From Psychrobacter fozii (GTDB taxonomy: Bacteria; Pseudomonadota; Gammaproteobacteria; Pseudomonadales; Moraxellaceae), in assembly GCF_003217155.1 (NCBI RefSeq), contig NZ_QJSU01000005.1, forward strand, positions 124,001 to 188,000: a stretch of DNA of 64,000 nt, written 5' to 3'. The notes below the pieces were generated by a model. It saw nothing but the letters and a program-made list of their open reading frames with translations. It was not told where the DNA came from and did not search any database. A program made the translations under genes and the position numbers. How positions within the stretch are numbered: position 1 is the first letter of the stretch; each line of letters begins with the position of its first letter. Of the stretch, positions 498 to 57,056 are shown in pieces.

Positions 498-601
498 TAG
501 TCGATTCAATATAATTTGGATACAAGGAAGCCGGGTGAAAGTACTACAAGTAGTAGACTAAGCAAGGCTGACACCGTATCCAATTTATAGAGAATCAACT
601 A
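498..601 (+). repeat. ~104-bp TA-bounded inverted-repeat element, subfamily A, copy 1
   Basis: The element begins TAGTCGATTCAATATAA and ends TATAGAGAATCAACTA. The reverse complement of the right end matches about 28 bases of the left end imperfectly. It is flanked by TA on both sides and has no coding capacity. Same-length copies occur at 26599-26702 and 42760-42863. It lies between the Roadblock gene and the PAS gene. Confidence 0.85.
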
Positions 602-627
602 CATAATGACCAATGAAGGAGATGACC

Positions 628-1122
628 ATGGGTTCTCCAATCCCTGATGCACACAAGCCTGATATGCCTGCCGAACAGATTACCCTGACTTACCATGATG
701 GCACGTCGCGTACTGTCTATGACACTGGTATCGAACGCCCTTATCCAGACGGTAAATTGATTGTATCGCGTACCGATTTGGATGGCGTACTGACACACGT
801 CAACGATGCCTTTGTTGAGATTAGCGGTTACCATGTCGATGAATTGATTGGCCAGCAGCATTATATTTTGCGCCATCCTGACATGCCAAAAGCGGCTTAT
901 AAAGACCTGTGGGACACTGCCACAGCAGGACAAAAATGGCATGGCTATGTCAAAAACTTATGCAAAGATGGTAGTCATTATTGGGTCTATGCAACCGTCG
1001 TACCTAACGTTCGTCACGGCGAAACCGTCGGCTATACATCCGTACGACGTAAGCCATCACGCAGCAAAATCAAAGCGGCAATGGCGCAATATGCCCAAAT
1101 GAAACAAAACGAGGAAGGCTAA
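628..1122 (+). CDS. Stand-alone Aer-type PAS sensor protein
   Basis: The 164-residue protein is one PAS domain closely resembling the FAD-binding PAS of the E. coli aerotaxis receptor Aer. It shows TDLDGVLTHVNDAFVEISGY, RHPDMPKAAYKDLW, G-x-VKNLCKDGSHYWV and GYTSVRRKPS in the same order. In Aer this domain binds FAD and senses redox state. Here no HAMP or methyl-accepting domain follows, so it must signal to a separate partner. I chose ATG 628 because AAGGAG at 616-621 sits six bases before it; ATGs at 613 and 622 are alternatives. Its stop lies three bases before the start of the next gene, so the two are co-transcribed. Confidence 0.85.
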   Translation: MGSPIPDAHKPDMPAEQITLTYHDGTSRTVYDTGIERPYPDGKLIVSRTDLDGVLTHVNDAFVEISGYHVDELIGQQHYILRHPDMPKAAYKDLWDTATAGQKWHGYVKNLCKDGSHYWVYATVVPNVRHGETVGYTSVRRKPSRSKIKAAMAQYAQMKQNEEG

Positions 1123-1125
1123 ATC

Positions 1126-1875
1126 ATGACGACACACAATATGTTAATCGCCCCAGATTTTTCGCCTGATCGTTTTGCAGGCTGGCACATGTTCAATACG
1201 TTGATTCAAAAACGTGCCAATTTAAATATGCACTTGAACATCCCCGCATCACATGCTGAGCAAGAGCAAGTCATTAATGCGGGTGACATTCAGGTCATTT
1301 ACGCCAATCCTTTTGATGCCGCAACCCTAATCCGTGAGCAAGGCTACCGTGCCGTCGCCCGCCCTATCGGAAAGTCTGATGAAATGGTCATTGCCGCTGC
1401 GGCAAATAGCGACATTAACCACTTAGAAGACATTAAAGCTGGTGCTACAGTCGCTATGGCAGACAACCGAGATGTCAAACTGATTGGCTTACGATTACTA
1501 GAAGCGGTTGATATCGAAGAATCTGATCTGACATGGGATGTCACTGAAACCTATCAGGCAGCTGCCCGTAAAGTTATTAAAGGGGATGCCCAAGCCGCGT
1601 TCTTTTTGGCAGAGATTTTTCATAGCTTTTCACGGTTGACCAAGACCCAGCTCTCCGTACTTATCGAAAGTGACTTGGCTGACATCAGCCACGTGCTACT
1701 TATTAAAGACGGCTTCCCTGATGCACAAATATTTATAGAAGCCATTCTCAATCTGCACAATGATGATGATGGTAAAGAAGCCTTGGCTGAGCTTGGTATG
1801 CCTCAAGGGTTTGAAGCGATGAACGAAGAAGATGCCGAATTTATGATAGATTTGATGCAGACACTGCTAGACTAA
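1126..1875 (+). CDS. Cytosolic PhnD-like substrate-binding protein
   Basis: The 249-residue protein has the periplasmic-binding-protein fold of the phosphate/phosphonate PhnD family: an early FAGWHMFNTLIQ segment, the IQVIYANPFDAATLIREQGYRAVARPI block, a hinge near INHLEDIKAGATVAMA, and a C-terminal lobe with DISHVLLIKDGFPD. It has no signal peptide and no lipobox, and no ABC permease or ATPase follows, so it is unlikely to be a transport component. A GAGGA site inside the end of the PAS gene precedes the ATG, giving tight coupling. I infer a cytosolic ligand-sensing role together with the PAS protein. The ligand is unknown. Confidence 0.75.
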   Translation: MTTHNMLIAPDFSPDRFAGWHMFNTLIQKRANLNMHLNIPASHAEQEQVINAGDIQVIYANPFDAATLIREQGYRAVARPIGKSDEMVIAAAANSDINHLEDIKAGATVAMADNRDVKLIGLRLLEAVDIEESDLTWDVTETYQAAARKVIKGDAQAAFFLAEIFHSFSRLTKTQLSVLIESDLADISHVLLIKDGFPDAQIFIEAILNLHNDDDGKEALAELGMPQGFEAMNEEDAEFMIDLMQTLLD

Positions 1876-1889
1876 CGGATGGACTAATT

Positions 1890-1994
1890 ACTGGGCTACA
1901 TACGCAATAGAAGACAGGTAAGAGCACTATAAACAGTAGACTGAACGGCTGAACAGGCCTGACAATCTATCTGGTTTATATGGAATTGACTGTA
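1890..1994 (+). repeat. Degenerate copy of the ~104-bp element (subfamily A)
   Basis: The stretch GTAGACTGAACGGCTGAACA through TGGTTTATATGGAATTGACT aligns with the right two thirds of copy 1 with many changes. The left boundary is unclear. It abuts the next element, sharing its terminal TA. Confidence 0.45.
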
Positions 1995-2094
1995 GTGAAT
2001 TCAAATAATTTCGATACAAGTAAACCGAGTGTAAGTGATACATTAGTATGCTTAGCGAGGATGACGATGTAGCGGATTTATATGAATTTGACTA
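1993..2094 (+). repeat. ~102-bp element, subfamily C, left copy of an inverted pair
   Basis: It starts TAGTGAATTCAAATAATTTC and ends ATGAATTTGACTA, and has the same overall plan as the subfamily A elements. Its reverse complement occurs at 2732-2834, with an identical core of about 45 bases and roughly eight differences overall. The two copies bracket the orphan gene at 2125-2748. Confidence 0.85.
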
Positions 2095-2124
2095 TATAGC
2101 GACCATGACTCAAAGGACACTGTT

Positions 2125-2748
2125 ATGTCTGATTCAGATCTTATTAAAGAAAACGAAATGGAAGCGCGGCGAGTATTCCGCTTATACTCGCGCAAAGTGT
2201 TTTTGGCACCCAACAACCGTCACTTTCACGAACAACGAATCAATGCGGCGCTACTATTGACCGAGAGAGAGCCGTTGCAAGGTGCTGTTGCAGACTTCTT
2301 TTATGGCTGCTGGTATGACATTCCTTATGATGTGAATAACTTATTCATTCGTGTCAAAGATCGCTTGTACCCTCATATTCAACAAGGGTTTCGCGACTGT
2401 ATTGATAAAAAAGCATATATTCAACGCAATAGTATGCTCGCGACCCGCTGGAGCGTACTAATCTCGCCTTCTCTCAATGAGCAAAAACAACGACTACGTA
2501 TCAGTAGCGATGACGCCAAGGAAATCTCCAAAGAAATCACAGCCGAGCTAATGCAAGCACGTACTAATGAGGATTGGGGTACGATTGAGCAAGTCGAAAA
2601 CGAGTTCTTTGCACACTGCATCGCTCGCAATGATCGCCTTGCTTTCTCATTAGTGTGGTTTCGCTTGGGCAAAAGCGACTGGCAATTCGATGCGCGTTGG
2701 AACAACTGTCAGCAGCACCTTGATCAAACTATAGTCAAATCCATATAA
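2125..2748 (+). CDS. Hypothetical protein flanked by inverted repeats
   Basis: I do not recognise this 207-residue protein. It is soluble, rich in charged residues and aromatic residues (FYGCWYDIPYDVNN, LVWFRLGKSDWQFDARWNN), with a basic central segment and no signal peptide or membrane segment. AAAGGA lies seven bases before the ATG. The last codons (VKSI and stop) are formed by the left end of the repeat at 2732, so the element has either trimmed or extended the original C-terminus. It is bracketed by two inverted subfamily C elements. It may belong to the signalling cluster around it by position only. Confidence 0.7.
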   Translation: MSDSDLIKENEMEARRVFRLYSRKVFLAPNNRHFHEQRINAALLLTEREPLQGAVADFFYGCWYDIPYDVNNLFIRVKDRLYPHIQQGFRDCIDKKAYIQRNSMLATRWSVLISPSLNEQKQRLRISSDDAKEISKEITAELMQARTNEDWGTIEQVENEFFAHCIARNDRLAFSLVWFRLGKSDWQFDARWNNCQQHLDQTIVKSI

Positions 2749-2834
2749 ATTTTCTACATCGTCATCCTCGCTAAGCATACTAATGTATCACTTACACTCG
2801 GCTTCCTTGTATCAAAATTATTTGAATTCAACTA
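2732..2834 (-). repeat. ~103-bp element, subfamily C, right copy of an inverted pair
   Basis: It starts TAGTCAAATCCATATAA and ends GAATTCAACTA, and is the reverse complement of 1993-2094 apart from about eight changes. It overlaps the last 17 bases of the gene ending at 2748 and supplies that gene's stop codon. Confidence 0.85.
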
Positions 2835-2888
2835 TATGAAAACCTAATTTATCGCCACTCTATAACCTTCATCATAATGGTAGCTGCT

Positions 2889-3503
2889 ATGTCTTCTTAT
2901 TTAAATGCTGATAAAACGTATCTGACTCTAACCCCAGCCGGTATTTTTGAGGCATTTTCACAAGGTGAGCCCACTGAGGAGCAGCTATCACTACAAGACT
3001 TGTTGTCTTATGCGCAGACGTTACTCGCTGCCGACTGGCTTGAACGCTACTCTGATGAATGGCTGCAAAACTTCATAGAACAAGGTTGGATTGAGAAACT
3101 GTCTCTCCTGTTACCAGCGCCCAATCTGCCACTAGATCAGTTTTTACCCTATGTGGTGGCCAGCTTATCAGGCAAACGCCGTGCTGCCATTGGCTCTGAT
3201 GAAGGGTTTTGCTTGGCACGTATTGGCTACACCCAAGAAGAAGCAGACATGCTCAGTGTCGCGGCAGCTGATTTTTCAGGATTTATGCTACGACAAAAGC
3301 AACGCGGATGGGCCGTAGAAAGCCAAGCGATCTCATTCTTTCAGCAGGTCGATCTGCTCATTCCTGAGACCAGTTTTGTATTCTTATGGATTGATGGTTC
3401 AGGCTATGTGCTCATTATCGATGGCGAACCTCTGACCAATAGTCGCGCCTTTGTAGAGCTGGTATGGGCACTCAAAACCTCTGGATTGAGGTTTCTTAAT
3501 TAA
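2889..3503 (+). CDS. Hypothetical protein of the Roadblock/PAS cluster
   Basis: This is a 204-residue soluble protein that I do not recognise. The N-terminal part resembles a small helical DNA-binding or adaptor module (LNADKTYLTLTPAGIFEAFS). An acidic leucine-rich middle follows (YAQTLLAADWLERYSDEWL), and the C-terminal strands read SFVFLWIDGSGYVLIIDG. There is no signal peptide. I favour ATG 2889 because ATG 2877 has no better ribosome binding site; neither is strong. It is the last same-strand gene of the left cluster, and a role with the Roadblock protein is only a positional inference. Confidence 0.7.
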   Translation: MSSYLNADKTYLTLTPAGIFEAFSQGEPTEEQLSLQDLLSYAQTLLAADWLERYSDEWLQNFIEQGWIEKLSLLLPAPNLPLDQFLPYVVASLSGKRRAAIGSDEGFCLARIGYTQEEADMLSVAAADFSGFMLRQKQRGWAVESQAISFFQQVDLLIPETSFVFLWIDGSGYVLIIDGEPLTNSRAFVELVWALKTSGLRFLN

Positions 3504-3600
3504 TTCTGCCAAAATTGATATTTTGGCTGAGCTTATAGAGTGTTATGTAAGATTTGGATTTGCCTTTTAAGGGGCATATCTTGACCTTTTCAAGGAAATA

Positions 3601-4695
3601 TTAATCTGACTGTTTGTCTTTATCATTTCCGAACTTTGAAATCAGCGCCATGATGACTTCTTGAGAGTTAATTGGGTAAGACTCATTACTTATAGATTGA
3701 AAATCTTTAGGGGCAAATATTCTTTGAGCAATTTCTGATTTTATTTTATGTTGCTCTTCGTCAGGTAATGAGGCTATATAAGGATTAATAGCCTTCAAGT
3801 CTAGTGATGTTTGAAGGTGTGTGTACTGTTGCTGACGATGCTTAGTAGATTCACGTGCTAAGTAAGCAGCTGGAACAGATAATAAAAACACTAATGCCAA
3901 TCGTAAAAGCGAGTTAGAAAGGTCGAAGCTTTGGTGTATAGACTCCCAAAAAGAATATCCAGCTATCACAATGATGACTGCCATGCAAAAAATTGATCCC
4001 CCTCTCAACCATTCGGCAGCTATTTTTTCTTGTTTTGCGCTATCTGCATACTCTGAGACAATAACTCTGCTTGCGGCATTACCTAGAAGCTGATCTAACT
4101 GAGCATTCTTATCATTAATAGCTTTTAGCTCTTCTTCATATGCTAGCGATATGGCACCGATTTTACTTTTGTATGTCTCTTCTAATGACTCTATTTCTTT
4201 CGTTAAAATATTAGCCTTAACTTCACTTTCATCAAGTGTTTTTTTTACTTTACGATTTAATTGTTCAAGTTTTTCATTCGTATCTTTTAATTGTTTCTTA
4301 AAAGATCTATAGTCTTGCATATCGCTTGAAACATTTGAACGTGCCTTATCTGTTAAAGGAACTGTCAAAATTGGTGAACTTTCTATCTTTCTACGAAGAA
4401 AACTAGCACGCTCCGATAAAGTTTTACTGTATTTCCTCGTTTGCTCATCCATATCGTCAACAAAAACATCAATTCTACTTGCATTTGAACAAACACTTAA
4501 AGCAGCTTCCGCAACTTTCTCTGCACTGCCTTTGTCCAGAGTAACCATGTAACTTTCATAAGCGCTTATAAAATAATCAATACGATCTCTAGTATTTTTA
4601 GATACTGGATTTTCACCAATGCTATCTCGAAATTTGTTAAATAGCTCTAAGATATCTGCTATACCATTTTCGAACTCTAACAGTATATCTTCCAT
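3601..4695 (-). CDS. Coiled-coil protein with two membrane segments
   Basis: The 364-residue protein has a helical N-terminal half, a clear coiled coil from about residue 125 to 205 (LKDTNEKLEQLNRKVKKTL and following heptads), two hydrophobic segments at about 232-250 and 262-280, and a soluble C-terminal tail. The short turn between the segments suggests a hairpin with both ends in the cytosol. No enzymatic motif is visible. The gene is more AT-rich than its neighbours and stands alone, which suggests acquired DNA. I cannot assign a function; a membrane-anchored structural or defence-related role is possible but unsupported. Confidence 0.75.
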   Translation of the reverse strand: MEDILLEFENGIADILELFNKFRDSIGENPVSKNTRDRIDYFISAYESYMVTLDKGSAEKVAEAALSVCSNASRIDVFVDDMDEQTRKYSKTLSERASFLRRKIESSPILTVPLTDKARSNVSSDMQDYRSFKKQLKDTNEKLEQLNRKVKKTLDESEVKANILTKEIESLEETYKSKIGAISLAYEEELKAINDKNAQLDQLLGNAASRVIVSEYADSAKQEKIAAEWLRGGSIFCMAVIIVIAGYSFWESIHQSFDLSNSLLRLALVFLLSVPAAYLARESTKHRQQQYTHLQTSLDLKAINPYIASLPDEEQHKIKSEIAQRIFAPKDFQSISNESYPINSQEVIMALISKFGNDKDKQSD

Positions 4696-4800
4696 AGTGC
4701 TCTCGGTCTGTATACATAAATCGATAATTATATATTATATTTAAGAGTATGAGATCTAATTGTTCAACTAGGTCACTATCCCAACTAAGTAAGTGGCTAC

Positions 4801-5343
4801 TTAAGCAGACTTCCACTGCTGCCGAATAATTTTGTATAGCACATGCTCAGCAAGCCGATGATTAGAATCAAGCATTGGATGATAAAAGTTTTCTTGTGTA
4901 TTACTCATGCCAATACGCTGCATGATAAGTTGCGAGTGCTCGTTAATCACTGCAGTAAAGGCCACGACTTCATCGAATCCTAATGTATCAAATGCAAAAT
5001 TTAATGAAGCTCGTGTCGCCTCCGTTGCATAACCTTGTCCCCAATAACCTTTGTGTAGTCGCCAAGCAATCTCAACAGCAGGTGCAAAAGGCATATCGGC
5101 ATGCGCTTCATTTAAGCCAACCATACCGATAAAGGTATCTGTCTCTTTTAGACTGACCGCCCAAAACCCCCAACCTTTATCTTTAATAAGCTGCGAGCAT
5201 TTATTGGCTATCGCATCGCTCACTTTTGGTGATAACGGCTTAGGGAAATACTTCATCACGTCAAGATCGGCATTCATTTCAGCGAATATCGCAAAATCAC
5301 TTACTCGCCACTGTCTAAGATATAAGCGTTCTGTTTCTATCAT
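4801..5343 (-). CDS. GNAT acetyltransferase, RimJ/RimL type
   Basis: The 180-residue protein has the standard GNAT order: an N-terminal IETERLYLRQWRVSDFAIFAEM, a central strand WAVSLKETDTFIGMVGL, the acetyl-CoA loop near WGQGYATEATRASLNFAFDTLG, and a C-terminal VINEHSQLIMQRIGM. This pattern is typical of the RimJ/RimL-like group, which acetylates N-terminal or small-molecule amines. The substrate cannot be told from sequence. It is a single gene with no operon partner. Confidence 0.88.
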   Translation of the reverse strand: MIETERLYLRQWRVSDFAIFAEMNADLDVMKYFPKPLSPKVSDAIANKCSQLIKDKGWGFWAVSLKETDTFIGMVGLNEAHADMPFAPAVEIAWRLHKGYWGQGYATEATRASLNFAFDTLGFDEVVAFTAVINEHSQLIMQRIGMSNTQENFYHPMLDSNHRLAEHVLYKIIRQQWKSA

Positions 5344-5557
5344 GTTGGTGGTTGAGCTCTCTCATCAGGGCGTATTGAATATTCACATAGGGGCGATATA
5401 GCCAAGCCAGAATAAAAGTAGTACATACAGTCATCATGTTCTACTAACCCTACTAGTTCTACTGGCCCTACTTCTATAGTATCGTGTGTCCATTGTATTC
5501 AGGATCGACCACATCCTTTCATTAAACTGTCGTGATAACTTAAGCTTTTGTGATAGC

Positions 5558-25655: not shown

Positions 25656-26597
25656 CTATACTGGAGAATAATCCCATGTCTTCTGTAAAGCCTTGCAACT
25701 GTTGTGCCACAATTGCTCAGCCAATCTATCTGGCGACACATTGAGCAACTCACTTAAGCTTAATAGTACCCATGGCAAATTAGCTGGTACGTTACGATCA
25801 TGTGACTGCTTATCAGGCCAACTATTATTATTATCTGACACTTGACACTGGATAGGTGTCATGTCTGGACAATCTGTCTCTATAACCAAACATTCTATGC
25901 CATAAGTCTCCACAGCAGCATGAATGGCACGGCGCAGTTTTTTGGCATTTGGGTTGGTGATCTGACCAGTAACACCTAGCTTAAATCCTAACCTCACAAA
26001 TGCTTTTGCCTCTTGTTCCCCGCCACTGAAACTATGTGCGATACCACCTAACTGGTGTGCATCATAATCGTGTGCCTTCAGTATAGCTAGCGCCTCTGCA
26101 TGTGCTTTTCGAATATGCAGCATCACTGGCAACTTATGAAGCACTGCTATGTCCAATTGCGCCTTAAAAAACCGTTTTTGTTTGTCAAATACCTCAGGCT
26201 CTCTCATAGATTCCGTGAAAGTATCCAATCCAATCTCACCGATTGCTATTGGCCGCTGCTCAGCAATCATATGCGCCATATTTTTTAGATGATCTTCACT
26301 GTGCTCTTTAATATAAAAAGGATGTAAGCCTATCGCAGTATGAGTCTCAATCTGTGACAAATTTGCGCTATCGACATCTTTGGCAGTCAACGGTACCAGC
26401 TTGTTTAATAGTTGTTCAGTCTTATACATTCTCTCAAAATACTGGTGTGAATACCCCACCAATAAGAGATGACGTACACCGCACTCATAAGCTTGCTGTA
26501 CTAGCAACTCCCTATCGCTATCAAATACTGGGGCATCAAAATGAGTATGGGTATCGATGAGAGGATAAGTCTTGAGCAACGTCTGTTTAGATATCAT
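25656..26597 (-). CDS. TatD-family metal-dependent hydrolase
   Basis: The 313-residue protein is a TatD-like amidohydrolase: metal motif DTHTHFDAPVF at the N-terminus, IGLHPF, the GEIGLD strand, PVMLHIRKAHAEAL, HSFSGG, and the late VIETDCPDMTP. TatD proteins act as metal-dependent DNases; E. coli TatD trims 3' ends. The start codon lies two bases beyond an inserted ~104-bp element (26599-26702), whose terminal repeat carries AGAGGA nine bases before the ATG. Thus the element provides the only visible ribosome binding site. Confidence 0.92.
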   Translation of the reverse strand: MISKQTLLKTYPLIDTHTHFDAPVFDSDRELLVQQAYECGVRHLLLVGYSHQYFERMYKTEQLLNKLVPLTAKDVDSANLSQIETHTAIGLHPFYIKEHSEDHLKNMAHMIAEQRPIAIGEIGLDTFTESMREPEVFDKQKRFFKAQLDIAVLHKLPVMLHIRKAHAEALAILKAHDYDAHQLGGIAHSFSGGEQEAKAFVRLGFKLGVTGQITNPNAKKLRRAIHAAVETYGIECLVIETDCPDMTPIQCQVSDNNNSWPDKQSHDRNVPANLPWVLLSLSELLNVSPDRLAEQLWHNSCKALQKTWDYSPV

Positions 26598-26598
26598 A

Positions 26599-26702
26599 TA
26601 GTCAATCCTCTATAAATTGGATACGGTGTCAGTCTCGCTTAGTCTACTAATTGTAGTACTTTCACTCGCCTTCCTTGTATCCAGATTATATTGAACCGAT
26701 TA
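26599..26702 (-). repeat. ~104-bp element, subfamily A, next to the tatD start
   Basis: On the plus strand it runs from TAGTCAATCCTCTATAAATTG to ATTATATTGAACCGATTA, reverse complement of copy 1 in structure and exactly 104 bases. Its left end is two bases from the tatD ATG, and the terminal repeat holds AGAGGA in the right place for a Shine-Dalgarno. Confidence 0.88.
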
Positions 26703-27268
26703 TAAATGGAACTATAGTGGTCATTAATAGACTCCGAGATTAACGTTTTTTAATTGAGCGTTATATCGTTCGGCATTTTATAGATATCATTAATAATTAG
26801 AATAACTTATATTAAAAGTATTTAATTTTTAATTTGATCTTTATTTCATTACTTTGCCGTTATTAACATTCTAAATACTATTAATATTACTATCAGATTT
26901 TGCATTATTTTTGTTTGAGAGGTCCATATCAGGCTTTTGACTACTACGCCGAGGTAGAAGCAATAAAGCTGTCGGAATAATTCCCAAAGAAATCCATTTT
27001 TTTACTTTCTGTCACTTTACCTATCCTATATCTTTGTACTGTTACTTATCCATTTTATCAGCAATTGTTCATAATGGATATTAATTAAAAAGTTATCACT
27101 GGCTTAGTATACGTGGATATGATGAGCTCTATGTTTATCTGTGTTATGAATACGCAAGCTAATGTATAGCTCTACTCTCTGAGAACACCGCTGCTACTGT
27201 TGGTATTAATTGGGCTAACAAACCATCAACGCCTTAATAGTACTAAAGATATGGCGTGCGGAAGACAT
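26703..27268. other. AT-rich non-coding region
   Basis: I see no supported gene in this stretch downstream of the element. It is strongly AT-rich, with scattered homopolymers, and has no clear inverted repeat or promoter pattern. Confidence 0.5.
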
Positions 27269-27319: not shown

Positions 27320-27328
27320 CATCTAATG

Positions 27329-27431
27329 TAGTCGATTCAATTTAAAAGTACTACTAGGTAACCGAGTGTAGATGTATGTTAAATACTTCAAGTGGGGTTA
27401 ACGCAGTAATACTTTCATAATGGAATAACTA
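27329..27431 (+). repeat. ~103-bp element, subfamily B, copy 1
   Basis: It runs from TAGTCGATTCAATTTAAAAG to ATAATGGAATAACTA, 103 bases with imperfect inverted ends shared with subfamily A but a different interior (CTTCAAGTGGGGTTAACGCA). It lies between the H-NS-like gene and its probable terminator. Confidence 0.85.
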
Positions 27432-27486
27432 TAATCAGCGATATCGCTATCAAACTTAATAAGAAAACTTATTAGTTAATACAACA

Positions 27487-29363: not shown

Positions 29364-30008
29364 TTAACGTTGAATTCTTTTGATAAAATCATTCATACCA
29401 CGTGCTAAATTACCACTATCCGTATTCTGTATTTCTTTTGCCAAGATCAATAATTGCGTACTACTACCACATTGCTCTAAACTTAATAAATAACCCCAGG
29501 CTTCTACAGGCGGTGCATTCTTTTCAATATAGGTAGCTAAATCAGATTTTATCGTTTCATAGCTAGCACTAGATGGCTTAGTTTTGAACATACTACTGAT
29601 TGATTTTTTTTCTGACTCTTTTACGTTAATGGTGCTTTTATTATTGAACGTATTATTGAACTCTACTTCAGACTTCTCATCAAAGACAGGTACGGCTGGT
29701 TGAGACTGAGTAGTGACAGGTACGGCTGTCGTCGTCTGAGCAGGCGTGGGCACTTCTGTCTCAGCACTGCCAGCCACTGCTATTTCAATACACTCAAGGC
29801 TCAAAAGCAGCTCAAATAGCGGTGTAATACCACCAAACTCAGCAAACATCTTGCTACTGTCGAGTGTATTAAGATAGCTCTGATACGTGCGTCTGCCATC
29901 AATCATAATGAGTAATGTTCTGGCTTCTCGCGGCAATACACCGAGACTCTGAGATTTAATCTCTTCTCTACCTAAATCACTTTTTCGAAACACATCACCA
30001 TAATTCAT
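29364..30008 (-). CDS. Hypothetical protein upstream of the BLUF pair
   Basis: I do not recognise this 214-residue protein. It has an N-terminal globular part (about residues 1-75, with REARTLLIMIDGRRTYQSYL), a Pro/Thr/Gln-rich linker (TTTAVPVTTQSQPAVPVF), and a helical C-terminal part with YIEKNAPPVEAWGYLLSLEQC. No signal peptide or membrane segment is seen. It is 107 bases upstream of the second BLUF gene in the same direction, so it could be an output partner for the photoreceptors, which is inference from position alone. Confidence 0.7.
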   Translation of the reverse strand: MNYGDVFRKSDLGREEIKSQSLGVLPREARTLLIMIDGRRTYQSYLNTLDSSKMFAEFGGITPLFELLLSLECIEIAVAGSAETEVPTPAQTTTAVPVTTQSQPAVPVFDEKSEVEFNNTFNNKSTINVKESEKKSISSMFKTKPSSASYETIKSDLATYIEKNAPPVEAWGYLLSLEQCGSSTQLLILAKEIQNTDSGNLARGMNDFIKRIQR

Positions 30009-30480
30009 TATGTATACTCAATACTAGCAGTGAGGTGGGCATTCTTATTTTAAAATGCCGACCAAGTAAGTTTTTATGTTTTAAACCATTAAATGGCCAA
30101 ACCCTGACTTTTCATTTGCTAATAAAAATCACTTTAAACGAAAGCCGAACGTTTAATATCGTATAAATCATTGATTCAAGTGGATTATATCAACCTGTCC
30201 AATAGACTGTTAGCATTAATTTGATTTAATAGAACAGACGGTTGATATAGGATATGAAAGGTAGTTTTTATCATTTTCAACATATAAATTGACGAAATAA
30301 TAAGCGAAATAAACCTTATAAATTTAATTATTCTAACCAATACCTATTCGATTATTAACCTTTTTGAATACTCAACAACCAATTATTGAATTTTTATTAT
30401 TTTGAGAATTAGAGTTTTTAATACCATTAGTATAATCAGAAACAGACAAACGTTTTATTTCATTTAGTAATTAGCACTTA
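30009..30480. other. AT-rich spacer with an imperfect inverted repeat
   Basis: This region precedes the gene at 30008 and holds no supported gene. At 30186-30249, TATATCAACC and GGTTGATATA face each other across about 44 bases and could form a long hairpin or a binding site. The rest is AT-rich. Confidence 0.45.
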
Positions 30481-30689
30481 CAGTTGATTCGATTTAAAAG
30501 TATATTCAATTTAATATAACTTGGACACAAGGAGGTCGAGTGAAAGTGCTACAAATAGTAGACTAAGCGAGACTGAAACTGTATCCAGTTTATAGAGGAT
30601 TGACTCTGCTGCAAAGCAACCGAGTCTAGATAGATATTCAATACTTCGAGCGACGTTAACGCAGCAACATTTTTATAGTGGAATGACTA
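30481..30689 (+). repeat. Subfamily B element interrupted by a subfamily A element
   Basis: The outer element starts AGTTGATTCGATTTAAAAG and resumes after an interruption with CAACCGAGTCTAGATAG through GAATGACTA. Its total of 209 bases equals a 103-base subfamily B element plus 106 bases. The interior insert is a subfamily A element. Confidence 0.82.
30501..30606 (+). repeat. Subfamily A element nested in a subfamily B element
   Basis: It carries ATATAACTTGGACACAAGGA and ends TATAGAGGATTGACTC, aligning along its whole length with copy 1 (498-601). Its right TA is changed. It splits the outer element after AAAAGTA. Confidence 0.8.
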
Positions 30690-30777
30690 TATATAGATAA
30701 AGACAGTCTAATTAACTCCCATATGGCTTTTAGCAATATGATAAAACGACTTTTTCAAATTATTTATCGTCACATAC

Positions 30778-37424: not shown

Positions 37425-37459
37425 AAAAGGCCACTCTACTGAATAAGGTGGCCTTTTTT
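37425..37459 (+). terminator. Rho-independent terminator of uvrA
   Basis: AAAAGGCCAC pairs with GTGGCCTTTT and is followed by more T. Confidence 0.9.
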
Positions 37460-37770
37460 GTTAGATGCTATTTTGTTAGATACTGTTTTGTTAGGTACTA
37501 TTTTATTGAATACTATAAAGCGCTACCCAGTCCATGAGTTGGAAACCTTAACTGATAGATGTGTGTAAAATTTCAACCTGTACGGCTACGTTGCGTTACC
37601 TTTCTTAATATTTATTAAAGATACTTAAACTTTAATTGTATTAATATTTAAATAGCACAACATCATGCGTAAACGCATACGATATAGAAATAACTGGTTG
37701 AGAACGATATAGCGTGCACGAGTCGACGCTATTCCCTTTAATACGACCTTTAAAATTTTAAGGACTTTCC
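37460..37770. promoter_or_regulatory. Upstream region of small lipoprotein 1, duplicated at 42350
   Basis: The sequence TTACCTTTCTTAATATTTAT through TTGTATTAATATTTAAAT, roughly 37594-37653, is repeated with changes at about 42359-42418, the same distance from the second lipoprotein gene. It probably contains the promoter. Confidence 0.55.
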
Positions 37771-38034
37771 ATGAAAAAATTACTATTTATTGTCTTGGCC
37801 TCTACTGTTGGCGTTGCTGCCTGTGCATCAAGCGGAACATCAAATAGCAGCCACAGTCACAAAAAACCAGCGATGTCAGCTGACATGAAACAAGCAATGG
37901 ATGATTGTGCTAAGAGAACTGGCGTAAAAATGACTAAAGACAGTCGCCCAAGTAAAAGCGATATGAAAAAACTAGAATCATGTATGACTGCAAAAGGGTA
38001 TAAAAAACCTGAAGGCCGTCCATCTACACATTAA
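37771..38034 (+). CDS. Small lipoprotein 1 (paralogue of 42475-42738)
   Basis: The 87-residue precursor has a lipoprotein signal ending GVAACASS, a His/Ser/Lys linker, and a mature core with two cysteines (MDDCAKRTGV and LESCMTAKGYKKPEG) that could form one disulfide. AAGGA precedes the ATG. It is about 80 percent identical to the gene at 42475, and its last codons plus terminator are copied again at 38686. I know no function. The duplicated promoter suggests that both genes are expressed. Confidence 0.8.
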   Translation: MKKLLFIVLASTVGVAACASSGTSNSSHSHKKPAMSADMKQAMDDCAKRTGVKMTKDSRPSKSDMKKLESCMTAKGYKKPEGRPSTH

Positions 38035-38132: not shown

Positions 38133-38229
38133 GATGACAGCCACAACTCGGACAAGTTAACCTCGCTTAAAGTATCGCGTCTACATCTGTACTCGGTTGC
38201 CTTGCATCTCTTTTAAACTGAATCAACTA
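38133..38229 (-). repeat. Truncated ~100-bp element, subfamily B
   Basis: Its right end (CTTTTAAACTGAATCAACTA) and interior (CATCTGTACTCGGTTGCCTT) match the element at 52460-52562. The left terminal repeat is missing or scrambled. Confidence 0.7.
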
Positions 38230-38283
38230 CACGATCATTGGGTATTATAATCTTCGCCCAACATATAAATTTTAGAGGAAGAA

Positions 38284-40104: not shown

Positions 40105-40120
40105 TAGTCAATTTTGACTA
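40105..40120. repeat. Back-to-back terminal repeats, possible excision scar
   Basis: TAGTCAATTTTGACTA is a near-perfect palindrome made of the two outermost ends of the ~103-bp elements joined with no interior. It may be a footprint left by deletion of such an element. Confidence 0.35.
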
Positions 40121-40159
40121 TGGGAATAAGCCATCTATTAGCTAAATAAAGGAATAAAT

Positions 40160-40540
40160 ATGGCTTTAATTAATTGTCCTGAGTGCACACACAAAATTAG
40201 CGACCAAAGCGTAACTTGTACTAGCTGTGGGCTTCCAACTTCTAAAATGAGATTTTCAATTAAATGTCCTGAATGCTCTAAATCTATTAGTAATCAAAGC
40301 ATCTCCTGTACTAATTGTGGCTTTCCTCTTATAAAGTCTGAAACATCCAAAGATATTCCACTTTCACCTGAAGAACTTAAAGAGCTTAAACTTCTTAAGG
40401 AGCTTAAAGAAGCTGGGGAACATGATGAACAAGGATTTTTCGATAACACAACTATGTTCATTATTAGCTGCATTATCATTTACTTTCTAGCTAAGGAAGA
40501 CATTCATAAGATTTTACAACACGTTATGGTCTATTTTTAA
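40160..40540 (+). CDS. Zinc-ribbon membrane protein 2
   Basis: The 126-residue protein has two tandem zinc ribbons (CPECTHKISDQSVTCTSCG and CPECSKSISNQSISCTNCG), a charged Glu/Leu/Lys helix (LSPEELKELKLLKELKEAGE), and one C-terminal membrane helix (TMFIISCIIIYFLA). AAAGGA lies before the ATG. The second ribbon is nearly identical to that in the third protein, which points to recent duplication. The function is unknown. Confidence 0.8.
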   Translation: MALINCPECTHKISDQSVTCTSCGLPTSKMRFSIKCPECSKSISNQSISCTNCGFPLIKSETSKDIPLSPEELKELKLLKELKEAGEHDEQGFFDNTTMFIISCIIIYFLAKEDIHKILQHVMVYF

Positions 40541-40614
40541 ATTGAAGAAAATACAGCGTAAGTAACGATTGATATTGAAACGATAACTAAAAAATTGCGA
40601 AAAATGGAAAATAT

Positions 40615-41061
40615 ATGGCCATTATTGATTGTCCTGAATGCACACACAAAATTAGCGACCAAAGCCTCTCTTGTACTAATTGTGGATGTCCAACTTCTAA
40701 AATGAAGTTTTTAATTAGGTGTCCTGAGTGCTCTAAATCTATTAGCAATCAAAGCATATCTTGTACTAATTGTGGCTTTCCTATTGCGAAACCTGCACCA
40801 TTTAAAGCTGTCCCACCTCCTTTACCGACTCAAAATCCTATTCCTATCGTACAGGGAAATAGAAAAAGTAAGGGTACAGCAGCATTGCTAGCCTTTCTTT
40901 TAGGAGGTCTTGGCATACATAAATTTTATTTAGATCAGGTTTTTTGGGGTATTTTATATTTATTGTTCTGTTGGACATTTATACCAGTAATAATCTCTAT
41001 GTTCGAAGTAATAATCCTCCTATTTATGGACGAATCTGAGTTCAACAAACGTTTTAGCTAG
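40615..41061 (+). CDS. Zinc-ribbon TM2-domain protein 3
   Basis: The 148-residue protein has two tandem zinc ribbons, a proline-rich linker (FKAVPPPLPTQNPIPIV), and a TM2 domain: two membrane helices with the motif GLGIHKFYLDQVFWGILYLL between them. TM2 proteins are widespread but mostly uncharacterised. It is the third of three consecutive ribbon genes. A terminator follows at 41139. I infer membrane anchoring with ribbons in the cytosol. Confidence 0.87.
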   Translation: MAIIDCPECTHKISDQSLSCTNCGCPTSKMKFLIRCPECSKSISNQSISCTNCGFPIAKPAPFKAVPPPLPTQNPIPIVQGNRKSKGTAALLAFLLGGLGIHKFYLDQVFWGILYLLFCWTFIPVIISMFEVIILLFMDESEFNKRFS

Positions 41062-42004: not shown

Positions 42005-42474
42005 TAGACGTCCAATTTGAAAGATACAGTTAAAGTAAATAGCGAAAATAAAGGCAATGAATTTATAAAGTCAAAACCCACTACTAAAATTCATGTCATT
42101 AATGTCATTAATGACATTAATGACATTAATGACATTAATGACATTAACTAAGAGCACCATATAATTAAGAATGTAACTACTATGTAAGTAATGTATCTAA
42201 ATTATCGAGTGAGATTATCATTAAAGAACACAAAAGTCTATCAATTCGACAACCTATTATTCATTCAATGAGAGCGGCAAACGTCAACTGGCCTAAAGGT
42301 CTTAGGTATTGGTTTATTACTGTTTTTGCAACGTTTCCATTTGTACTCCCCTATTACGTTACCTTTCTTAATCTTTTGTTAAATGTATTTAAATTCTAAT
42401 TGTATTAATATTTAAATGGTTCAACGTTATTCATGAACTGCAACTATATAAAAATACTTAATTGAGAATTTCAT
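42005..42474. other. Divergent spacer with 9-bp tandem repeat and duplicated promoter region
   Basis: The part nearest the M48 gene holds six 9-base tandem units. The part nearest the second lipoprotein (from about 42350) copies the upstream region of lipoprotein 1. I see no other gene. Confidence 0.6.
42094..42147. repeat. 9-bp tandem repeat, six units
   Basis: Two units of TGTCATTAA are followed by four units of TGACATTAA with no gaps. It lies upstream of the M48 protease gene, so unit number could change promoter spacing. Confidence 0.92.
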
Positions 42475-42738
42475 ATGAAAAAACTATTATTTATTGTCCT
42501 AGCATCTACTGTCGGTGTTAGCGCCTGTGCTTCAAGCGGAACGTCAGAGAGCAGTTACAGTCATCAAAAACCAGCGACATCAGCTGACATGAAACAAGCC
42601 ATGAATGATTGTGCTAAAAATGCTGGCGTAAAAATGTCTAAAGACAGTCGCCCAAGTCAAAGTGATATGAAAAAACTAGATGCATGTATGACTGCCAAAG
42701 GGTATGAAAAACCTGAAGGTCAAGGCCATCAGCACTAA
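42475..42738 (+). CDS. Small lipoprotein 2 (paralogue of 37771-38034)
   Basis: The 87-residue precursor keeps the lipoprotein signal ending GVSACASS and the two-cysteine core (MNDCAKNAGV, LDACMTAKGYEKPEG). It differs from lipoprotein 1 at scattered positions and ends GQGHQH. The upstream region is also duplicated. A ~104-bp element is inserted between its stop codon and its terminator. The function is unknown. Confidence 0.8.
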   Translation: MKKLLFIVLASTVGVSACASSGTSESSYSHQKPATSADMKQAMNDCAKNAGVKMSKDSRPSQSDMKKLDACMTAKGYEKPEGQGHQH

Positions 42739-42759
42739 TTCGTATGTTTTAGACAGTTA

Positions 42760-42863
42760 TAGTCAATCCTCTATAAATTGGATACGGTGTCAGGCTTGCT
42801 TAGTCTACGAGTTGTAGTACTTTCACTCGCCTTCCTTGTATCCAAATTATATTGAACCGACTA
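42760..42863 (-). repeat. ~104-bp element, subfamily A, before a terminator
   Basis: It runs from TAGTCAATCCTCTATAAATTG to TTATATTGAACCGACTA, nearly identical to 26599-26702, with TA on each side. It separates the lipoprotein stop (42738) from its hairpin at 42866. Confidence 0.88.
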
Positions 42864-42865
42864 TA

Positions 42866-50677: not shown

Positions 50678-50706
50678 AAGATACTAATACTTATTGCTTG
50701 ATAGTA

Positions 50707-52377: not shown

Positions 52378-52744
52378 AAGTCTTCCTTAACGGTTATAAT
52401 GGACTTCTAATAAGAATGGGGTGAAAACAACTCTACTTAATCAAGTAATTCAACAGATATAGTCAATCCTCTATAAAAGAGTGACAGCCTTAACTTCGCT
52501 TGAAGTATCAAACATACATCTGTACTCGGTTGCCTTGTATCTCTTTCAAACTGAATCAACTATAGTACTGATTTTCAGAATGCTTTTTTCATACCCTATT
52601 CATCGATAGTAACAAGACCATTTAGCACACGCTGTTTTTTTGTATGTTTACTGCGTTGCAAAACGTAAGTTTGCGAGTTTCGTTTAGACCCTCTATGACT
52701 ATGACTTCCATTTTAAATTTACAATCAAAATAAAAGACTACTTT
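52378..52744. other. Divergent spacer holding a subfamily B element
   Basis: This region between the reductase gene and truD contains the ~103-bp element at 52460-52562. The remaining sequence shows no gene or hairpin. Confidence 0.6.
52460..52562 (-). repeat. ~103-bp element, subfamily B
   Basis: It runs from TAGTCAATCCTCTATAAAAG to CTTTCAAACTGAATCAACTA. The reverse complement aligns with 27329-27431 and 56765-56867, including CAACCGAGT and ACTTCAAGCG. TA flanks both ends. Confidence 0.85.
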
Positions 52745-54010
52745 ATGACTTATCCAGACAACCATATTGAAACGCCTACGATCTCTGACTCCGAATCACA
52801 TTCGGAGAGCAAGCCAGTCACGAGCGCATCCGTTGATATAGCTGATATTGATATTACAGCTGCCGCAGATACTACGCAGTTGCCACAGCCGATGCAGCCA
52901 CCGTTAAAACAGGCAACTTATAAAGCCAATACTACGGATTTCATCGTTAATGAGCTATTGCCATTAGACTTCACCAATGAAGGTGAGCATCTATGGTTGC
53001 ATATAGAAAAATCAGGAATGAATACTGCTTATTTGGCCAAACTACTATCAGAGTGGGCAGAGATTCCATTGCGTGATGTTGGATATTCAGGATTAAAGGA
53101 TCGTCATGCGTTGACGACACAGTGGTTTAGCCTACGAATACCAAAGAAGCAACTACCAGTAACTGAGTTTGCGCCAATAGATATCGGAGAGACAGAGTCA
53201 GTCACTATTCTCGCCCAGCATTGGCATAACAAAAAGCTCAATCGTGGTACGCATCGTGCCAATCAATTCGTGATTACCTTGCGTAATATTCAGTTTGAAA
53301 ATATCGATACTGAGACACCAGAACCTGAGCAATTATTGTCTGCAAAAGAAGCAGTCGAGCAGTATTTATCGAATATTAGTCAGAGCGGCGTCCCCAATTA
53401 TTTTGGTCCTCAGCGTTTCGGTCGTCAGGGCAATAACGTCAGAGAGGCACTATCCCTGTTTGCCCGTCCACCACGAGCGCCTCGCCCATCGTCTAAAAAA
53501 AGCAAAAGCAAGCGTGCCCCGCGAGAGCAAAACACGATGGAGCTGTCTGCAGCCCGTAGCTTGATATTTAATGAGATATTGGCAGCACGCGTACGAGATG
53601 GTAGCTGGAATACTGGTCTATCCGGTGAAGTGTTTAACTTGGATGGTTCAGGGTCTATATTTACCAGTGAAGAGATAGATGACACATTACGTGAACGAAT
53701 GGCTAGTGGTGATATTCATCCAACGGCTGTGATGTGGGGAATAGACAATGACAAAGTCAGTAATGCGGCGGCAGACATTGAAAATGATACTGTACAACAT
53801 AGCCTTTTATTGACGCAGTTAGCAGCAGGATTAGAGCAACGAGATATAAAGGCACAACGACGAGCGCTGCGTTTACCTATCGAAGCATTAACATGGGAAT
53901 GGCGTGATTCAGAAGAAGACTCGCAGACACTCGTGTTGAATTTCACGCTAACGACTGGCAGTTTTGCAACCAGTGTATTGGCGAGTTTGGTACAGCAGTT
54001 GGTCTTTTAA
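52745..54010 (+). CDS. truD: tRNA pseudouridine synthase D
   Basis: The 421-residue protein makes pseudouridine 13 in tRNA-Glu. The catalytic Asp lies in GYSGLKDRHALTTQW, and the family blocks NTAYLAKLLSEWAEIP, NYFGPQRFGRQGNN and the late TGSFATSVLASLVQ are present. It has about 55 extra N-terminal residues rich in Ser, Thr and acidic residues, and a basic insert (SSKKSKSKRAPREQ). The ribosome binding site is weak. No operon partner is visible. Confidence 0.94.
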   Translation: MTYPDNHIETPTISDSESHSESKPVTSASVDIADIDITAAADTTQLPQPMQPPLKQATYKANTTDFIVNELLPLDFTNEGEHLWLHIEKSGMNTAYLAKLLSEWAEIPLRDVGYSGLKDRHALTTQWFSLRIPKKQLPVTEFAPIDIGETESVTILAQHWHNKKLNRGTHRANQFVITLRNIQFENIDTETPEPEQLLSAKEAVEQYLSNISQSGVPNYFGPQRFGRQGNNVREALSLFARPPRAPRPSSKKSKSKRAPREQNTMELSAARSLIFNEILAARVRDGSWNTGLSGEVFNLDGSGSIFTSEEIDDTLRERMASGDIHPTAVMWGIDNDKVSNAAADIENDTVQHSLLLTQLAAGLEQRDIKAQRRALRLPIEALTWEWRDSEEDSQTLVLNFTLTTGSFATSVLASLVQQLVF

Positions 54011-54083
54011 TTAAGTAGATACAGATTAGGACATTCATAGATGACATCTATCATCTATGAATGTCTAGCTGCTTTATCGATTT

Positions 54084-55535
54084 TTAATTACTATAAAGCG
54101 ACTCTATCTTTGTATCGCCTGCTTTTAACATCTCGTTAGCACTCACAACTTTATCGCGCCCGAGGCCCTTAGCATTATACAAAGCCTTATCCGCCATACA
54201 GATCAAGCGCTGACAAATATCTTGGGGCAATTCTACTGTATCAACCTTTTTATCCGCTCGTTCACTATTCGACTTACTGACCTGTGGTTTTTTAAACTGA
54301 TACCCTGATTCGGTTTGTGACAGTTTTTCGCATGTGTGCTTTATGCAATGACGCTCATCATGAGTCAGCGTGTATAGCCCGAGACTAGCGGTCACGTTAA
54401 AGGTAGTATTGTCATCGACCACGATGGTTTGATCAGCGATGCTTAGCCGTAGTTGTTCGGCAATAACCATCGCACTATCATGCTTCGTATCTGGTAGTAC
54501 AATCAAAAACTCCTCACCACCATAGCGGCTAACAATGGCATCATCTGTCAAAGACTGTAGTAGTGCTTGTGCCACTGTCACTAACACTCGATCACCAATA
54601 TCATGACCATAGCTATCATTGATGTCTTTAAACCAATCTAAATCTAATAGAATTACGCTAAAGTCTTGAGCACGTTCTATGCTCACTAATGCCTGTTTCA
54701 TTTGCATCAGACCATAACGACGGTTTTTTAGTTGTGTCAGCTCGTCTTGATTGGCATGTTGTAAGGTTTCTTTTCTACTGTCATCTAATATCACTAACAA
54801 AGTACGAAACATATAAATGATAAAAATGGCTTTTGGTAACGACATATAAATATGGGTAGAACGCCACAACAGATTGGAAGATTGACGCAGATAATTGACA
54901 CTATCCCAATTTAACCTTCCATTTGGCAGGACAGTGGCAGCGGTAGCGTCTTTCATCATAGCCATCTCATTATAAGTGACATAACTATGAATATTAGGAG
55001 GCAGCGTCGTAGCAATCATTTGACGCAAATTTGGTAACGTGATACCAAAATAAGGAAACAACGTTACTGCTAAGATTGCGATAATTTGCCCTACAAATGC
55101 TCGCCATACATACCGCCGGCTAATGAGCATCATTCCTAGCATAGCACCACCTACCAGTGAGACACCCGTTACCAGACTACTATGCCCTAATATGGTGATA
55201 ACAAAGGTAATATAGGCACTATAAATGGTGATAAGTATCGCTTGCCACGTATACAAATTGCTCTTGGCGTTTCTAACTGGTGAAAAACGACTGGACATCC
55301 ATAGTAAAAATACACCTACCATGGACACGAGAATCCATAGTGGATAGAGCAGAGTTATATCAACGTAATTACTATAAATGTCGCGGCGATACCAAACAAA
55401 TAAGCACCACAGCCAATGTGAAAAAACCTCAATCACCATAAATGCTGCTAGTAGAGCAGTCCTATCAGCTGCTTCCCACTCAAAAACCGCCTTAGAAAGC
55501 TGCTTGTAGCCTAGATAAAACTTAGATACAGCCAT
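54084..55535 (-). CDS. Membrane diguanylate cyclase
   Basis: The 483-residue protein has six membrane helices in the N-terminal half, then a GGDEF domain (LTQLKNRRYGLMQMKQAL, LLDLDWFKDINDSYGHDIGD, SRYGGEEFLIVLP). The signature GGEEF and the surrounding metal Asp are intact, so it should make c-di-GMP. The RxxD product-inhibition site is absent. A charged insert of about 45 residues lies between the ASLGLYTL strand and the final ADKALYNAK helix. The sensed signal is unknown. Confidence 0.92.
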   Translation of the reverse strand: MAVSKFYLGYKQLSKAVFEWEAADRTALLAAFMVIEVFSHWLWCLFVWYRRDIYSNYVDITLLYPLWILVSMVGVFLLWMSSRFSPVRNAKSNLYTWQAILITIYSAYITFVITILGHSSLVTGVSLVGGAMLGMMLISRRYVWRAFVGQIIAILAVTLFPYFGITLPNLRQMIATTLPPNIHSYVTYNEMAMMKDATAATVLPNGRLNWDSVNYLRQSSNLLWRSTHIYMSLPKAIFIIYMFRTLLVILDDSRKETLQHANQDELTQLKNRRYGLMQMKQALVSIERAQDFSVILLDLDWFKDINDSYGHDIGDRVLVTVAQALLQSLTDDAIVSRYGGEEFLIVLPDTKHDSAMVIAEQLRLSIADQTIVVDDNTTFNVTASLGLYTLTHDERHCIKHTCEKLSQTESGYQFKKPQVSKSNSERADKKVDTVELPQDICQRLICMADKALYNAKGLGRDKVVSANEMLKAGDTKIESLYSN

Positions 55536-55810
55536 AATGGGCTACCGCAAATAGAAAAATTGATAGAGCTAAAACGAGAATAACAACTGACAACTCATGA
55601 TTACTACTGAAACCAAAACTACTTATTCAGTGTGGCCATTTATGCCTGAATTATCAATCCATTTGATAGTTCACGCGTCAATATCTGACGCTTTGTTTTA
55701 AACATTATTTCAATTGATATATTAATTCAGGCAACCTCCAAGATTAAACGATAATCAACCACTTTTCAGTGGATTTTATAGGTATTTTTTGAATACTTGT
55801 AAAACACGAA

Positions 55811-56692
55811 TTAAGCAAACATCTTAAATGACTGCCAAACCCCTTGCTGTTCGGGGTTCAACGTCGGTACATCGCCCAAGCGTCGCCACGGCATATTACT
55901 ACCATGAAAGTCACTACCAATTGAGGTGACAAGATTGTGCTCAGCGATACTACGATCGACCATTCTGCGGGTGCTAACTGGCTCACTATTGGCGGGCAGC
56001 TCACAAGCATCACCGCCTAACTGGGCAAATTCTTCAATCAGTTTGCGCACGCGAGTGGCTGAGAGTTGATAACGAGTCGGATGCGCCAGTACAGCCTTAC
56101 CACCACAAGCATGGATTAGCTCGATACCATGCTGCATCGTTAGGGCCTCAATTGCCACATACGCAGGTTTATTATCTGCCAGATATTTATCAAAGGCCTT
56201 TTGTACGGTTTTTACTTCACCGCGTTCAAACAATACTTGACCAATATGAGCACGACCGACTGCTTGTGGATTACCACCTACTTTATCAAGTACAGCCTGC
56301 CATAGCTCATCATAATTAATATCCAGTAGCTCGCTAAGTTTTTCAGTGATTTTCTGACCACGAGTGGCACGGCTTTCTTGCAGTTGCTGTAGAGTGGCAT
56401 CCATTTTTTCACGATCAGTAAAATCAAGACCTAGCACATGGACAATTTTGTTGGTTGATTTGTTTTTACCATAACCACCACTGAGCGTATGCTCACAGCT
56501 GATTTCAACACCATTAATGAGTTGCATATCACAGGCTGTAGCAGCGACTCTCGCCTCATCAATTCCCGCTAGCGTATCGTGATCGGTCAGAGCCAATACA
56601 TTGACGCCAGCTGCATGGGCGCGTTGTATCACCTCCGTTGGTCCATAAGTACCATCAGAGTAGTGGGTGTGACAATGTAAATCTATTTTCAT
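55811..56692 (-). CDS. PHP-domain 5'-3' exoribonuclease, RNase AM type
   Basis: The 293-residue protein is a PHP phosphoesterase related to E. coli YciV (RNase AM), which trims the 5' ends of rRNA and degrades short RNAs. Metal motifs DLHCHTHYSDG, ALTDHDTLAG, NGVEISCEH, VLAHPTRY and SDFHGSNMPW are present. The length of about 290 fits. AAGG lies before ATG 56692. It lies divergently from yciB with a 364-base spacer; in E. coli the same genes also cluster loosely. Confidence 0.9.
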   Translation of the reverse strand: MKIDLHCHTHYSDGTYGPTEVIQRAHAAGVNVLALTDHDTLAGIDEARVAATACDMQLINGVEISCEHTLSGGYGKNKSTNKIVHVLGLDFTDREKMDATLQQLQESRATRGQKITEKLSELLDINYDELWQAVLDKVGGNPQAVGRAHIGQVLFERGEVKTVQKAFDKYLADNKPAYVAIEALTMQHGIELIHACGGKAVLAHPTRYQLSATRVRKLIEEFAQLGGDACELPANSEPVSTRRMVDRSIAEHNLVTSIGSDFHGSNMPWRRLGDVPTLNPEQQGVWQSFKMFA

Positions 56693-57056
56693 AAATAAGC
56701 CTTAACATTTTAAAATAATAAGTATTAAAGAGAGTAAGAAGCGATGCAATAGCCAGCCGTTGTATGGTCGATTCAATTCAAAAGTCATTCAAGCAAACCG
56801 AATGTAGATGTATATTAAATACTTCAAGTGGGGTTAACGCAGTAACACTTTTATGATGGAATGACTGTATTTAATATATAGAACTACTGACATTATCGAA
56901 TCGTTATATTGGATAGCAGTGCTGCTCATGAGCCACAATCATAAAGTGTTACTAAGCAAGCCCGCTATATAGAATGATTATCGCGTTGATTGCTTTTTTT
57001 TGGTGCAGTAGACGTGTAAACTACCCCATACGTTTTTGGTGGACACCCTATTTGTT
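56693..57056. other. Divergent spacer holding a subfamily B element
   Basis: The spacer between the PHP gene and yciB contains the element at 56765-56867. I see no other gene or hairpin. Confidence 0.6.
56765..56867 (+). repeat. ~103-bp element, subfamily B
   Basis: It starts TGGTCGATTCAATTCAAAAG and ends GATGGAATGACTG. The interior ACTTCAAGTGGGGTTAACGC is identical to copy 1 at 27329. The ends have drifted slightly from TAGT and ACTA. Confidence 0.83.

Follow-up and report, generated by a model that had tools for sequence, protein, structure and literature searches.

The 64,000-nucleotide stretch of Psychrobacter fozii DNA analyzed here, hereafter the window (NCBI RefSeq assembly GCF_003217155.1, contig NZ_QJSU01000005.1, positions 124,001 to 188,000 of the forward strand), carries a family of repeats of about 103 bp with ends of the form TAGTC...GACTA. 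We are confident that these repeats are Correia-like and have probably been mobilized by an IS630-type transposase. The fuller explanation that best accounts for the data, and that we hold to be very probable, is that they are non-autonomous, TA-inserting elements of IS630 type, homologues of Neisseria Correia elements that enclose a conserved folded core. They insert at TA with duplication of that dinucleotide, as seen at two loci, and, being too short for a gene, most likely depend on IS630-family transposases of the genus acting in trans. Their ends resemble the terminal inverted repeats of these IS630 elements across about 30 bp, and the conserved hairpin core lies between the ends.

The repeat family in the window

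Two end motifs recur far above chance, TAGTCGATTCAATWTAA with 13 matches in the window at up to three mismatches against 0.60 expected, and TATAGAGGATTGACTA with six against 0.54; none of 100 shuffled sequences reached either number. A covariance model, R1, was built from 35 copies of the window's own genome (alignment A1) with no Neisseria sequence among them. Its scan of the window returned 17 rows corresponding to ten places, seven of which matched on both strands, and an eleventh copy, the outer member of a nested pair, was recovered on joining its halves. The repeat family proposed in an initial annotation of this DNA is therefore real. Coordinates below are those of R1 and include TA-like bases at both borders. 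Five of the ten places (496, 26597, 27327, 42758, and 56763) were among the 35 training copies, so their scores are high by construction.

Three of these training copies are A-type elements, located at 496..603 on the forward strand (element proper 498-601; 115.9 bits) and at 26597..26704 and 42758..42865 on the reverse strand (119 and 125.4 bits), the last beside a terminator-like hairpin. The C-type elements at 27327..27433 and 56763..56869, both forward, are the other two (105.5 and 99.6 bits), and a further C-type element lies on the reverse strand at 52458..52564 (97.2 bits). Two elements of the type called B in the initial annotation occupy 1991..2096 (forward, 77.9 bits) and 2730..2836 (reverse, 84 bits); 1996-2096 is complementary at 93% to 2730-2830, and the second element shares 19 bases with the 3' end of an open reading frame (ORF) at 2125-2748. 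The nested pair noted earlier at 30481 was also recovered, as an A-type element at 30501..30608 (forward, 94.5 bits) within a C-type element at 30479..30694 (forward). Joining 30479-30502 to 30607-30694 restores an outer copy identical to the C consensus in 93 of 109 columns, with a 2-base excess that may be read as a duplicated TA, today TA/TG.

Three remnants had been suggested as well, and they fared differently. That placed at 38133 is a truncated C-type element at 38136..38231 on the reverse strand (39.9 bits, E 6e-6; 60 of 74 columns agreeing with the C consensus). The one at 1890 corresponds to a degenerate A-type remnant at 1910..1992 (forward), adjoining the next element, and is real but weak: 57 of 85 aligned columns agree with the A consensus, and its score of 24.2 exceeds all of 300 shuffles, which reached at most 17.5. 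The third, at 40105, has a 10-base end match alone and is not established. An Rfam scan of the window gave no families at cut-off, and in six element loci no Rfam match with E ≤0.5 reached its cut-off; two of these matches, both to Thr_leader, touch the element in locus L001.

Kinship with Correia elements

Applied to the Neisseria gonorrhoeae record NZ_CP119140.1, R1 gave 60 matches with a best E of 1.3e-7, which among the matches listed span all 108 positions, and the three that were fetched are Correia elements by sequence. A Correia consensus sequence matched one stretch of an N. gonorrhoeae record at 99% identity. NZ_CP119140.1 and NZ_CP119142.1 (about 2.17 Mb) are labeled as N. gonorrhoeae plasmids and are chromosome-like in size. 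In the reverse direction, a second model, R2, was trained without Moraxellaceae, on 29 cores taken from Neisseria, from other Betaproteobacteria, and from Volucribacter, and omits the outermost 15 or so bases of the elements. Its top three matches in the window are the A-type elements at 496, 26597, and 30501 (E 2.5e-6, 0.0049, and 0.28), followed by a non-element with E 5.8; the E-values of both models are rough, reflecting a short calibration. Aligned core blocks are common to the Psychrobacter and Correia families. The model searches, run in both directions, show that the Psychrobacter repeats and Neisseria Correia elements are homologous.

The initial annotation knew of no named family with these ends. 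The family does have a named relative, the Correia element (CREE or NEMIS). Strict CREE are described with ends TATAG[CT]GGATTAA and with a core bounded by TCAGGACAA / CCGGTACGG (PMC2649163), whereas the present repeats have TATAGTCGATTCAAT / GGATTGACTATA with a related core. With flanking TA the repeat ends read TATAGTC...GACTATA, and the aligned own-genome copies measure 105-109 bp including TA, in keeping with the 104-108 bp of the short CREE form. A homologous core and fold are indicated by R1, R2, and the pair counts given below.

Literature searches found no paper linking "Correia element" with Psychrobacter, although subscription journals were mostly uncovered and an earlier notice is possible; three core strings matched only two texts, which judging by their titles concern fungi. 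Correia elements have already been called IS630-derived miniature inverted-repeat transposable elements (MITEs) (PMC2817692), and a 2024 review names them in Neisseria alone, among the passages covered (PMC10969869).

IS630-type elements with fitting ends

The transposase domain PF13358 (DDE_3) was found at E ≤0.001 in 80 of 100 genomes of the genus, in 75 of them above the curated cut-off. Among 30 IS630 loci fetched from the genus, 24 have TATAGT..ACTATA flanking the gene at a spacing of 889-958 bp, as against none of 30 IS5-type loci of the genus and 31 of 1500 shuffled loci. These ends resemble those of the repeats to differing degrees, agreeing in between 8 and 19 of 21 bases. Six IS630 loci, selected for their ends, were compared over 34 bases: an end of L412 agrees with the right end of A in 27 positions (the best anywhere in 300 shuffles being 23), and one of L420 agrees with the right end of C in 26. 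In L405 the end match runs inward as far as GATACAA, a sequence that also bounds the conserved core on its outer side. L420 holds two ORFs, assigned by Pfam to HTH_Tnp_IS630 and DDE_3, the second being named IS630 by NCBIfam. The two top-ranked named plasmid relatives of the genus transposase are in Psychrobacter, and on two named plasmids of Psychrobacter IS630-type genes are enclosed by TATAGTC ends at spacings of 915 and 979 bp. Searches of plasmids with the Psychrobacter arm gave chance-level matches only, and with the C element none.

The earlier expectation that the genus would hold IS630-type elements with matching ends was thus correct, and on account of the end match we infer that the repeats would be moved in trans by an IS630 transposase.

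Insertion at TA and turnover

TA is the established target of the IS630 family. Two related genomes of the genus, G043 and G058, were compared over about 600 kb each. Either has 16 copies in this portion, 14 of them at common positions and two private. At a first private locus G043 reads GGCTGC-TA-TAGTCG...GACTA-TA-GAAGCC and G058 reads GGCTGC-TA-GAAGCC; three further genomes (G053, G045, and G008) are filled here too, giving four filled and one empty. A second locus is filled in G058 and empty in G043, as GTCAG-TA-TTGACGG. The footprint at both is clean, a single TA when empty and TA-element-TA when filled, which is the outcome that the initial annotation had asked of its transposon reading; both loci are in congeners and do not involve the window's own copies. 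From the footprints, the nested A-in-C insertion, and the mostly common positions, it follows that movement is real, and turnover looks slow. Conservation at orthologous positions as structured RNA had been named as the result that would speak against a transposon. Common positions (14 of 16) and a conserved fold are indeed observed; the refutation of mobility that was to follow from them is not.

Fold and covariation

A structure alignment (A3) of 35 diverse sequences, 15 of them from Moraxellaceae and 20 from other groups, yields a consensus hairpin of 19 pairs, 14 of which have changes on both sides, with 90.5% of cells paired; the alignment is least certain around columns 20-30. Its covariation is 0.625, compared with 0.200 in shuffled alignments and 0.094-0.157 when partners are slid. 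In the terminal arms joint change is unavoidable, since a single transposase acts on both ends; inner pairs covary too, namely alignment columns 17-59, 19-56, and 24-52. The core hairpin comprises a short stem, mostly GTAC-AARTA-GTAC, plus conserved unpaired loops, and both an asymmetric loop and the five-base tip (AARTA) are unpaired and largely conserved across orders. The strand represented by the model folds better in 49 of 54 own-genome copies and in all 26 elements of Accumulibacter type. The core probably serves as a functional module.

It is conceivable, though rather unlikely, that the compensatory changes arose by template switching that perfected imperfect palindromes, with no structural selection. 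Quasipalindrome correction is an established mutational process, and within the window's own genome the both-side changes are mostly one A-against-C difference counted repeatedly. Two of five own-genome measures are unremarkable, with 14 of 39 pairs changed on both sides between A and C against 11.1 when shuffled (41 of 500 shuffles) and 42 further pair types against 42.4. Correction alone would, however, tend to erase the unpaired loop and AARTA tip that are conserved across orders; their conservation is partly fixed by the 22-base search pattern described below in the betaproteobacterial rows, and not in the Moraxellaceae rows.

One core between different ends

A 22-base core pattern matched at least 118 stretches over species genomes; among the matches listed, 117 are from Betaproteobacteria (Neisseria, Accumulibacter, Cupriavidus, Methylobacillus, Crenobacter, Acidovorax, and others) and one is from Volucribacter (Pasteurellaceae), whose core has ends TATAGTCG resembling those of the Psychrobacter repeats. 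The palindromic arms around the cores fall into unrelated types. Among 114 core places with full flanks, 88 were classed into three types and 26 were unclassified, and target duplications were counted in 85 core places after removal of duplicates. A subgroup of IS5-family elements typically produces TNA duplications. In the TTCC..GGAA type the flanking 3-mers are identical in 17 of 24 places against 7.1 with shuffled partners, and both are TNA in 19. The corresponding numbers for the GAG..CTC type are 10 of 22 against 4.5, with both TNA in 11. One core thus occurs with at least three unrelated ends and, on this reading, two target-duplication lengths. The converse case, GAG-type ends around a non-Correia middle, seems to exist too: a 90-bp element of a viral contig (L462, 4383-4472) has GAG-type GAGCCGCTAACAAAAC ends and another middle, without a Correia core by eye.

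Searches for donors of these other ends were extended to several sources. The arms of the betaproteobacterial cores gave 30 matches with no core nearby. The GAG-type arm matched five plasmid records, the two inspected showing no annotated transposase close by. In viral contigs 21 stretches with GAGCSGCTAACAAAAC were found. Seven of these loci have a matching second end at a distance of 90-114 bp, and in no case was a clear end pair at insertion sequence distance combined with a transposase.

Within its own genome (G000), the family has at least 44 A-type and at least 40 C-type places, partial ones counted. R1 matched 58 of 60 genomes of the genus at E 0.01, several with at least about 64 candidates, and 39 of 119 genomes and four of 16 genera in the family. 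Three loci of Moraxellaceae relatives (L115, L128, and L122) keep the core and have outer ends other than those of TATAGTC type. Among 369 genomes of the class, a weak search in which the best ten candidates per genome were scored, R1 had a single match, in G000 itself. An exact core pattern gave no signal there (one genome, G192, of 369, vs. five of 369 for a backwards control). It had no match in G000 and is too narrow for the Psychrobacter forms.

The pattern of a superfamily with a structured core and interchangeable ends is supported by these results. Tentatively, the likeliest reading is that the core is a module kept because the element needs its folded strand, as RNA or as extruded DNA, the ends following whichever transposase is available. 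An equally tentative extension is that the Correia core is the mobile module itself, one hairpin found in Moraxellaceae, a member of Pasteurellaceae, and several betaproteobacterial orders, which may repeatedly have been fitted with unrelated terminal repeats of TA and TNA types and selected as a folded strand. An exchange of ends around a fixed core runs counter to the usual picture of MITEs as internal deletions of one insertion sequence, with constant ends and a drifting middle.

Weighing the interpretation

A number of results weigh against the interpretation given above. The window's own genome has no match to PF13358, an absence that is uncertain in a 24-contig draft, and its single PF01609 element has different ends, GGCCGTGTTGAACATT. 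So the mobilizer in this genome has been lost, has been missed in the draft, or is a different one. Two properties of IS630-derived MITEs were found, namely ends resembling those of the host group's IS630 elements and, in congeners, the TA target duplication; a transposase in the same genome was not. Of the four loci private to G043 or G058, two are clean, a third is consistent with TA with altered flanks, and the fourth is unreadable. The borders of the window copies cannot be read either, because their element-free orthologues are only 72-84% identical in the flanks, and these show no clean footprint; the remaining pairs compared are no clearer. Regarding the Correia link, R2 found three of the ten window places; one A-type element, the two of B type, and every C-type element escaped it, and R1 had no match in a Cupriavidus record that carries the core.

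In A3 two out of five measures of pairing are weak: the number of pairs changed on both sides (14) compares with 12.0 when shuffled, 19 of 500 shuffles reaching 14, and further pair types number 47 against 42.8 (32 of 500). The model strand folds better in just 12 of 20 Neisseria elements and five of 11 GAG-type elements. Selection on the RNA strand, judged by fold energy and wobble, is not general and is not established, the G-U and A-C counts pointing both ways. In the broad core set the 22-base gathering pattern itself fixes the conservation of that stretch. For the TAG..CTA type, TA stands on both sides in 33 of 39 places against 33.2 when shuffled; since TA is constant there, this control is blind to the difference between a duplication and a longer palindrome, and target duplication is reported for Neisseria elements (PMC2649163). 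The partner searches turned up no autonomous element, of IS5 type or other, with GAG..CTC or TTCC..GGAA ends.

It is improbable that the repeats are plain deletion derivatives of local IS630 elements, linked to Correia by similar ends only and with a core likeness due to chance or composition. Such an origin would fit the agreement with IS630 ends, which extends inward over some 30 bases and in L405 includes GATACAA, and the description of Correia elements as IS630-derived MITEs (PMC2817692). Against it, R2 still puts window copies first without the outermost bases, aligned core blocks are common across families, and inner stems covary between families.

Gene context was counted for 54 of 60 fetched own-genome copies, six having been excluded beforehand as truncated or badly aligned, using script-predicted ORFs of at least 80 amino acids. 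None lies inside an ORF, though a few overlap ORF ends (by up to 5 bases at the 3' end and up to 88 at the predicted 5' end), so that for these 54 the earlier statement confining the copies to intergenic stretches and gene ends is borne out. Tandem genes border 37 copies, divergent genes nine, and convergent genes eight. A structured RNA or regulatory repeat that is kept by the host at fixed positions and is not mobile would agree with this avoidance of ORFs, with the stable and conserved fold, and with the shared positions in G043 and G058, but is very improbable given the empty sites with one TA and filled sites with two, the nested A-in-C insertion, the likeness of the ends to those of IS630 elements, and the near absence of orientation bias relative to tandem genes (21 same, 16 opposite).

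Other repeats in the window

Five similar terminator-like hairpins followed by T runs occur at 37430, 38062, 38763, 42871, and 48110, one of which directly adjoins the element at 42758. A 258-base direct repeat of 85% identity (37758-38015 and 42462-42719) has shorter repeats nearby, which together suggest local duplication. Direct repeats of 217 bases with 82% identity (40145-40361 and 40600-40816) span two adjacent small ORFs, and 29685-29744 is a tandem pair of 30-base units with 73% identity.

Comparison with known systems

Besides the short form, Correia elements have a long form of 153-157 bp, and they are known for RNase III processing, outward promoters, and, in the long form, a site for integration host factor. 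The Psychrobacter repeats are like them in size class, target duplication, TATAG ends, hairpin, and homologous core, and differ in end and core letters (TATAGTCGATTCAAT in Psychrobacter vs. TATAGYGGATTAA in Neisseria) and in their host family, Moraxellaceae. Correia elements were described as 104-108 bp long with a target duplication, in Neisseria only and with their means of spread left undecided in the 2009 account, as far as the passages covered go (PMC2649163). Here Correia relatives are present in another genus alongside an IS630 element with fitting ends, and the question of the mobilizer thereby becomes testable outside a pathogen.

The IS630 elements of Psychrobacter share TATAGT ends with the repeats, with up to 27 of 34 end bases in common, and differ in being about 0.9 kb long with transposase ORFs where the repeats have the hairpin core. 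Three further systems are similar by description. RUP of Streptococcus pneumoniae, in a different host, is 107 bp long, has TA, and has been proposed to be mobilized by IS630-Spn1 (PMC2229807), and the enterobacterial ERIC is likewise a small mobile repeat with TA termini (PMC2229807). MITEAba12, a MITE of 111-114 bp reportedly mobilized by ISAba12, comes from the same bacterial family as the repeats, Moraxellaceae (PMC6382973).

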